Origin: Tubulanus polymorphus
Lineage: Eukaryota; Nemertea; Palaeonemertea; Tubulaniformes; Tubulanidae
Assembly (NCBI RefSeq): GCF_964204645.1
Contig: NC_134034.1
Coordinates: 9,667,414 to 9,731,413, forward strand
DNA: 64,000 bases
Reading direction: 5' to 3'
Position 1 is the stretch's first letter, and every line of letters starts with the position of its first letter. The notes below the pieces were generated by a model. That model was not told where the DNA came from. It made no database searches and saw only the letters and a list, made by a program, of their open reading frames with translations. The translations under genes were made by a program, and so were the position numbers. Below are positions 15,942 to 62,781 of this stretch, piece by piece.

Positions 15942-18900
15942 CTAAGCGTTTGACGGCCAGACTAGAGCGAGATTTTTTCCGTTTTTCTTGAAGCACACCG
16001 CGTTGTTGCCGCTGTCACCGCCGTTGTTGCTGTTGTTCTGTTGAGGCTCCATCAAAATAACGACCGTTCGAGATTTACCGCCGAGCATGCACTGCAACTG
16101 ATGACTGATGATGACGCGCAGGTTTTTCTTCTGCGATCTGAAATAAAGATCAAAACAAGAAGTTTAAGAGACAGCGGGATCATTGAAAGTTAACCCATTA
16201 GCACACAAGCCGCGCCCATATCCACCCTGCCTATTACTCCTCAAGCCACCCGTATCCGCCCTGCCTATTACTCCTCAAGCCCCCGTATCCGCCCTGCCTA
16301 TTACTTCTCAAGCCCCCGTATCCGCCCTGCCTATTACTCCTCAAGCCCCCCGTATCCGCCCTGCCTATTACTCCTCAAGCCCCCCAGTATCGGCCCTGCC
16401 TATTACTTCTCAAGCCCCCCGTATCCACCCAGCCTATAACTCCTCAAGCCCCCCCGTATCCGCCCTGCCTATTACTCCTCAAGCCCCCTTATCCGCCCTG
16501 CCTATAACTCCTCAAGCCCCCCCGTATCCGCCCTGCCTATTACTCCTCAAGCCGATAGCTTATGATAAACTAGACGCCCGAGTCCTCGAAATACAGCACA
16601 GAAATCAAATTTTCTGAGGAGCAATTGACGCTTCGTAGTGAAATTTCTGAGTGCCAAAATTTCTGAGTGCCAATGGGTTAAGATAGGGTAGGATAGGAAT
16701 TTGGAGCTGTAAAGTGAAAAAAACTTACTTTTGCGATAGTTTACATAAAGTGCCGACCAGTTCGCCGATCCTATCTTCGTTGTTCCGACTCAGTAGACAA
16801 ACGACGAGATCATTGCCGCCTGACAAGTGAATAATGGCCAACTGATCTTCACCGGGCGTAACGCTTAATCCGGTCACCTGAGAAGAGAAAATCAAATTTC
16901 GCTCGATCAAGTCGACAAGCAAGTACCACATCCAGTACGTAACCGAAGTATAACCCAGTTATTAACCATAAATAGCGTACAATGGAAGTGAACAGGTCAA
17001 TAACATTCTCCAAATTCCTCAAGGTTGGTAGGTTTTTAGTAAGATTTGATAATTACACTGAGTTTCTTAGACATGAAAACACCGTTTCACAACCGCCCTA
17101 AGAATTACTGAACCCACCCTGCGAGCTACTGAACCCGCTCCGCAAGCTACTGAACCCACCCTGCGAGCAACTGAACCCACCCTGCGAGCTACTGAACCCA
17201 CCCTGCGAGCTACTGAACCCACCCTGCGAGCTACTGAACCCACCCTGCGAGCTACTGAACCCGCTCCGCGAGGTACTGAACCCGCTCCGCGAGCTACTGA
17301 ACCCGCCCTGCGAGCAACTGAACCCGCCCTGCGAGCTACTGAACCCACTCCGCGAGCTACTGAACCCACCCTGCGAGCTACTGAACCTGCTCCGCGAGCT
17401 ACTGAACCCGCCCTGCGAGCTACTGAACCCACCCTGCGAGCTACTGAACCCACCCTGCGAGCTACTGAACCCGCTCCGCAAGCTACTGAACCCACCCTGC
17501 GAGCTACTGAACCCGCTCCGCGAGCTACTGAACCCACCCTGCGAGCTACTGAACCCACCCTGCGAGCTACTGAACCCACCCTGCGAGCTACTGAACCCGC
17601 TACGCGAGCTACTGAACCCGCTACGCGAGCTACTGAACCCGCTCCGCGAGCTACTGAACCCGCTCCGCGAGCTACTGAACTCGCTCCGCGAGCTACTGAA
17701 CCCGCCCCGCGAGCTACTGAACCCGCCCCGCGAGCTACTGAACCCGCCCCGCGAGCTACTGAACCCGCCCTGCGAGCTACTGAACCCGCCCTGCGAGCTA
17801 CTGAACCCACGTTTGAGCTACTAAACCCACCCTGCGAGCTACTGAACCCACCCTGCGAGCTACTGAACCCACCCTCAAGCTACTGAACCCACCCTGCGAG
17901 CTACTGAACCCACCCTGCGAGCTACTGAACCCACCCTGCGAGCTACTGAACCCACCCTGCGAGCTACTGAACCCACCCTGCGAGCAACTGAACCCACCCT
18001 GCGAGCTACTGAACCCACCCTGCGAGCTACTGAACCCACCCTGTGAGCAACTGAACCCACCCTACTTACACTCTACAAGCTCTACTTACACTGCTGATTG
18101 AAATAGCACCTTTCAACGATTTAAACTTAGACGAATCAAGTTTATAGATGAAGCGATCGGTCACAACGAGGCACCGGTCGGCCGATTTATTGAATCGATT
18201 TGTCTTTTTCACGCGGCACGAGAAAACAACGCGACTGAATTTGTCCTTGAACTTCAGATCGTTAATCGCCGCCACGAACGACGCCGTGTTGTCATTATCG
18301 TGAACCTGTCAAGGAATAAACGAAAAACTATTCTTTCAATTTCGAGGAAGCGTCTGCATCGTTTTCATACGCCAATCACTGTAGACTCCTCCTAAATCAG
18401 CACTATAGGGTTAAACCATTAATTAGGTGGTTTTGTAAACACATTTTATCCTACTTCCTAAACCAAAGTTTCAAAAATAATCCTGGTTCCAACTGTACCG
18501 ATTTAGGCAAAGTTAACTGTACAACTACAAATAGACAAATATGTCTAATCGCCTATTTCTCAACATTGAAGGAGTTTTAAAGGAGTTTTGGGCATTTTGC
18601 TCAAATTAAAGGAGTTTCAAGCACCTTTAAATCAATGTGTTTTTAAGGAATCAAGGAGGCCTAGGGACGCTGCTGTACGATGCTGTAATACAAAATTCAG
18701 ATCCTGTTCTAGATACATGTATATGACGGATGAGTTCTGAAAAAGGTTTGAAGGAATCAAGGAGTCGTCCGGACCTCGTTAAACCGACCTTCGCCAAATA
18801 GTTTCCTTCCCATTTGCGTTTGAAACCCCACGCGCGTCGTTTGTTGTTCAGCGCGTCTGCTGCGAGTACTTTCAACTGTAACATCGGGCGTTCGTCGCGC

Positions 18901-62337: not shown

Positions 62338-62781
62338 ATGGCTTTAAAACGTATCAATCGAGAATTAACCGATTTAAAAAACGATCCTCCGGCGCTTTGT
62401 TCGGCCGGTCCGGTCGGCACCGACATGTTCAACTGGCAAGCCACGATTCTCGGACCTCCCGATTCACCGTACCAGGGCGGCGTGTTCTTTCTGACGATTC
62501 ACTTCCCGACCGATTACCCGTTTAAACCGCCGAAAATATCATTTTGCACGAAAATCTACCATCCGAACATCAACAGCAACGGTTCGATCTGTCTGGATAT
62601 TCTCCGGTCGCAGTGGTCGCCGGCGTTGACCATCTCGAAGGTGCTGCTGTCCGTCTGTTCGTTACTGACCGACCCGAATCCGGACGACCCGCTCGTGCCG
62701 GACATCGCGCGACTTTACAAAACCGACCGTTCGAAATACGAGACTACGGCGAAAGAGTGGACGTCGAAGTTCGCGTTATGA
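62338..62781 (+). CDS. ubiquitin-conjugating enzyme E2, UBE2D type
   Basis: Accepts ubiquitin from E1 as a thioester and passes it, with RING or HECT E3 ligases, to substrates in cytosol and nucleus (family knowledge). One uninterrupted 147-codon ORF, exactly the UBE2D length. It shows MALKRI at the start, SAGPVG with backside Ser22, [27 protein letters not shown], the HPN motif (75-77), catalytic Cys85 in [19 protein letters not shown], and [13 protein letters not shown]. The C-terminal third differs more from canonical UBE2D ([15 protein letters not shown]), and N7, C70 and K72 replace usual residues, so this may be a divergent paralog. UBE2D genes normally have several coding introns; none is present here. 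A 5' UTR intron is likely (acceptor at 62292). AATAAA follows at 62949. Family call is firm; exact paralog is not. Confidence 0.95.

Follow-up and report, generated by a model that had tools for sequence, protein, structure and literature searches.

A compact block of genes in the nemertean Tubulanus polymorphus raises the question of whether linkage to Hox in human can be read back onto the ancestor of bilaterians. Human members of the Myo1D, CDK12 and INPP1 families lie on Hox-bearing chromosomes, and in Tubulanus these families are represented by close neighbours. The block lies in the stretch of 64,000 nucleotides that we analysed (the window), C10:9,667,414-9,731,413 of an assembly of 267.8 Mb in 77 contigs. 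C1 to C12 measure from 32.1 to 11.5 Mb, and the 13 later contigs that were sampled from C13 on are each at most 0.24 Mb long; in view of this large drop in size after C12, we take the assembly to represent 12 chromosomes. C10 is 14.3 Mb long and starts with telomere repeats of the TTAGGG type. Four genes are recognisable in the window, all within 47 kb: a class I myosin, INPP1, CDK12 and a UBE2D-type ubiquitin-conjugating enzyme. The preliminary description had proposed Myo1D, INPP1, CDK12 and UBE2D for this interval, and matches in PDB and Pfam bear it out, with the myosin presumably of the D/G subclass. Inspection of the window's open frames of at least 60-62 aa, a codon-score scan outside the four genes and Pfam scans of chosen frames revealed no fifth gene, although short exons may escape such a procedure.

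The myosin gene occupies 15942..31575 on the minus strand and has matches to Pfam Myosin_head and Myosin_TH1 as well as PDB motor matches. Its motor frames (up to 31198-31575; Myosin_head) find their best PDB matches in Myo1b (390 bits) and Myo1c (368 bits). The tail is made up of TH1 frames near 16728-16958 and 18069-18308, both matching Myosin_TH1, and near 18654-19043, for which there is no Pfam match, followed by a C-terminal exon near 15945-16154 that was placed by eye. Since the motor exons match Myo1b and Myo1c and the tail exons match Myosin_TH1, the sequence assigns this gene to class I. It is presumably of the D/G subclass, as judged against the tail of human MYO1D; no MYO1D chain is present among the 60 listed of 150 PDB matches of the motor exons. 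The tail of a second class I myosin is found on C6 (7,061,392-7,061,803), about 1.4 Mb from the Hox cluster described below.

INPP1 (inositol polyphosphate 1-phosphatase) follows at 37444..42123, also on the minus strand, and was delimited by PDB, Pfam and eye. The frame near 37444-37794 scores 83.6 bits against inositol polyphosphate 1-phosphatase (PDB 1inp), with the next family at 24 bits, and 36.7 bits against Pfam Inositol_P; the frame near 39594-39794 reaches 26.4 bits with the same model, slightly below the cut-off of 27, and the N-terminal exon (41845-42114), set by eye, has no Pfam match. CDK12, a CDK12/13-type kinase supported by PDB and Pfam Pkinase, lies at 44236..57735 on the plus strand. 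Its kinase exons (within about 50606-55680; Pkinase, PDB) are flanked by RS-rich N-terminal frames (44236-45132 and 47788-48624) and a long C-terminal frame (56449-57735), all recognised by eye and position. When joined, the kinase exons give 528 bits to CDK13 and CDK12 chains versus 297 bits to CDK9. We regard the identities of both INPP1 and CDK12 as firm.

INPP1 and CDK12 are arranged head to head: the two genes diverge, and a distance of about 2.2 kb separates their 5' coding ends as placed by eye. Such an arrangement would be in keeping with an ancient microsynteny in which Myo1D, INPP1 and CDK12 form a tight cluster held together by shared regulation. However, megabases of 17q separate MYO1D from CDK12 in human, INPP1 lies on a different chromosome altogether, and a limited literature search found neither a report of a Myo1D-INPP1-CDK12 cluster nor anything relevant on these three genes together with UBE2D. 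We therefore consider such a cluster improbable. Most likely, the closeness within 47 kb is the outcome of shuffling within the chromosome and implies no shared function.

The fourth gene has a different bearing on the question. The UBE2D-type coding sequence (62338..62781, plus strand; Pfam UQ_con 181 bits, and read directly from the sequence) encodes 147 aa and is intronless. A second UBE2D gene, also with an intronless coding sequence, is present on C10 near 11.04 Mb (piece L040, 4871-5314), 1.3 Mb from the window copy. The two are identical at 123 of 147 residues and 371 of 441 bases (84% in both cases), and BLAST similarity between them is limited approximately to the coding sequence, plus one match of 50 bases. 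The copy near 11.04 Mb is, in our judgement, nearer to the usual animal sequence than the window copy. Both full-length, single-frame UBE2D-type matches of the genome are thus on C10; a third match, on C1, is weaker and contains stops. The position of the window copy may reflect retroposition. Human UBE2D1-3 are found on 10q, 5q and 4q. Because the coding sequence is intronless and the second C10 copy is 84% identical, UBE2D is uninformative about linkage, and we discarded it as support for a link to human 7p. Its presence in the block looks like a coincidence, a possibility that had already been voiced for UBE2D4.

If the block were a piece of an ancestral Hox linkage group, Hox might be expected on the same chromosome. 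A search of the genome for homeoboxes yielded at least 115 matches (150 of 170 candidates were scored), including ten in a row at C6:5,318,228-5,634,747, all on the plus strand and spanning about 316 kb. Judging by their signatures, we take their order to be Post2, Lox4, Lox2, Antp, Lox5, Scr, Dfd, Hox3, pb and lab; with gene names assigned in this way, the C6 cluster is a Hox cluster of lophotrochozoan type. Further along C6 there are genes that are presumably Gbx-like and engrailed-like. The STAT_bind model gave three matches genome-wide, all of them likewise on C6 (5,284,818-5,285,916), and the gap between them and the Post2 side of the cluster is about 32 kb. With the window on C10 and the Hox cluster on C6, the four-gene block is not linked to Hox in this genome, and we rejected such a linkage; nor does the block share a chromosome with the Hox genes that mark the Hox-bearing group B2.

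The placement on two chromosomes bears directly on the interpretation offered in the preliminary description, namely that an ancestral group with Hox already on it was later split by the vertebrate duplications and that the block is what is left of it. In favour of this interpretation, three of the four families have human members on Hox chromosomes, further families of the Hox paralogon are present on C10 (CDK5R, MED1 and HECW, see below) and the second class I myosin is on the same Tubulanus chromosome as Hox. However, with Hox on C6 and the block on C10, it would require a fission or a move in the Tubulanus lineage. It is also at odds with reconstructions that, in the passages drawn on here, put Hox on the bilaterian group (BALG) B2 (PMC11175523), with B1 and B3 as separate groups in the bilaterian ancestor (PMC7269912, PMC11175523). 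We regard descent from such a group as very improbable. As described in part of PMC7269912, amphioxus BFL10, BFL16 and BFL18 jointly constitute CLGB, which bears the vertebrate Hox clusters; each corresponds to a different scallop chromosome, and the fusion of the three predates vertebrates. A passage of PMC12693507 equates B1 with BFL10, and one in PMC11175523 cites earlier work that deduced the fusion of B1, B2 and B3 on the way towards vertebrates.

To what extent, then, does C10 hold genes of the paralogon besides the block itself? We selected nine marker families with human members on Hox chromosomes and searched the whole genome for each with a family-specific Pfam model. The markers were picked sequentially, some after earlier results, and several were chosen as human neighbours of CDK12, CDK13, MYO1D or INPP1. 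Each of the nine families matched one contig only. CDK5R, MED1 and HECW were found on C10; PDE1, ErbB and CACNB on C1; STAT on C6, near Hox; Nckap1 on C11; and glutaminase on C8. For HECW, the match (41.9 bits at a cut-off of 26.7) covers a short sequence interrupted by two stops, as if it spanned an intron. Three of nine markers on C10 correspond to P(>=3) = 0.010 if chance is proportional to chromosome length, a guide value given the sequential picks. If C1, C6 and C10 are pooled (seven of nine markers), P = 0.0017, likewise a guide value, with the trio named post hoc.

Human members of the CDK5R, MED1 and HECW families lie on Hox-bearing chromosomes. By these human places, C10 has CLGB content in addition to the window genes. 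Since CDK5R, MED1 and HECW are on C10 too, the data support a gathering of paralogon genes on this chromosome that goes beyond the genes from which the idea had started. In other words, the proposal that the block preserves part of the Hox paralogon stands as far as gene content is concerned and fails with respect to ancestral linkage to Hox: the suggested search for Hox-linked markers on the same chromosome did recover three families, whereas the Hox cluster itself turned up on C6.

Alternatively, the genes of the block might be unrelated neighbours, with C10 carrying no B element and the human places agreeing by chance. About 22% of human genes are on chromosomes 2, 7, 12 and 17, and choosing among paralogs improves the odds of a fit further; six of the nine markers are off C10, and UBE2D seems coincidental in any case. 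As a weaker test, C10 was sampled in 22 evenly spaced pieces of 10 kb (L027-L039, L061-L069), in which seven genes were recognised. Three of them fit human Hox chromosomes (P = 0.18 at a base rate of 0.22): a RIF1-like gene, PAN2 and a NOM1-like gene, with human places that we take to be 2q, 12q and 7q. The other four, a GALNT2-like gene (L029), ELP2 (L030), a kinesin (L038) and RRS1 (L039), do not fit, being presumably located off the human Hox-bearing arms. The names are not all equally secure. The RIF1-like gene (L061) is a presumptive assignment made by eye, its frame of 1558 aa having no Pfam match. PAN2 was identified in L062. The NOM1-like gene (L063) has an MA3 match, and its best PDB match, scoring above CWC22, is to an unnamed protein with an MI domain; the name NOM1 is presumptive, and another of its frames has no PDB match. 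Left out of the count were an exon with a TIR domain, seen by eye in L028, an exon with HEAT repeats in L032, frames that by eye resemble transposons (L031, L032 and L066) and frames that were not recognised; among the latter, five (L036, L038, L039, L064 and L069) have no Pfam match. A yield of three in seven does not exceed chance and neither proves nor excludes C10 as B1 or B3. CDK5R, MED1 and HECW, which were not among the original picks and are on C10 (P = 0.010 as above), count against a purely fortuitous agreement. On balance, we hold chance to be an unlikely, albeit not negligible, explanation.

Taken together, these observations lead us to favour, with reasonable though by no means full confidence, the reading that much of a B element without Hox, either B1 or B3, is located on C10, and that the human link with Hox stems from a later fusion and is not ancestral. 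The locations of CACNB on C1 and of glutaminase on C8 count against this reading, the two being human neighbours of CDK12 and INPP1, respectively. The simplest account of C6 is that it carries B2 with Hox. Since spiralian Hox chromosomes are heavily rearranged according to a part of PMC11175523, C6 and C10 may each be a mixture of several elements.

Under the favoured fusion scenario, the block would be an unremarkable segment of a lophotrochozoan chromosome derived, at least largely, from B1 or B3. In the vertebrate lineage B1, B2 (with Hox) and B3 would have fused and the product would then have been duplicated, so that the human relatives of Myo1D, CDK12, INPP1, CDK5R, MED1 and HECW would now reside on Hox-bearing chromosomes. 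It is tempting to speculate that the tight neighbourhood of Myo1D, INPP1 and CDK12 has been kept since the early bilaterian B1 or B3 chromosome. We give this idea little credence; if true, the neighbourhood would mark that non-Hox element at the level of genes.

As in the vertebrate Hox paralogon, or CLGB (human 2q, 7, 12q and 17q), the block and other C10 families have human members on these chromosomes; unlike there, the Tubulanus Hox cluster is on a chromosome other than that of the block. The likeness to B1, B2 and B3 (BFL10, BFL16 and BFL18) is that seven of nine CLGB markers are on C1, C6 and C10, one of which has Hox, as expected if the groups are separate. The difference is that C8 and C11 carry one marker each, and that each chromosome may be a fusion. 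Paralogy among four chromosomes around Hox was described by Abbasi and Grzeschik in 2007 (PMC2235844). In the portion of that paper relevant here, Hox-linked families form four co-duplicated groups with ERBB set apart from HOX; in Tubulanus, likewise, C1 bears ErbB and C6 bears Hox. The authors argue from these groups against whole-genome duplication; alternatively, the groups may reflect separate ancestral elements. The part of PMC2566581 consulted names none of MYO1, CDK, PDE1 and INPP1, and the portions of PMC10719294, PMC9976460 and PMC11371463 consulted have no content deciding the linkage question.

The Tubulanus case is a new instance of the known B1/B2/B3 fusion pattern. Families that travel with Hox in human sit on a separate lophotrochozoan chromosome, as the published fusion of B1, B2 and B3 predicts, and the case thus works through why linkage on human Hox chromosomes should not be projected directly onto the bilaterian ancestor. 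It also provides Myo1D, INPP1, CDK12, MED1, CDK5R and HECW as candidate markers for one non-Hox B element.

Several features of the surroundings are worth recording. No gene was recognised from open frames or Pfam in the first 15 kb of the window, of which about 4.5 kb are tandem repeats; the array at 1635-4996 has a unit of 43 bases in 78 copies with 95% matches. Three arrays with 60-base units (11415-11856, 35821-36475 and 51423-52530) apparently belong to one family, and translated repeats resembling them also occur in a separate piece (L022, about 8694-9173). Within the myosin gene, a 21-base repeat in 46 copies occupies 17106-18063; this unit being a multiple of three, the repeat leaves extended open frames that do not correspond to genes. 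To the right of the window, C10:9,741,414-9,761,413 contains a nuclear receptor with a match to the Pfam hormone receptor domain in its C-terminal frame; it was left out of the C10 gene count, being outside the sample and having several human relatives, and by eye we take it to be of the EcR/LXR type.
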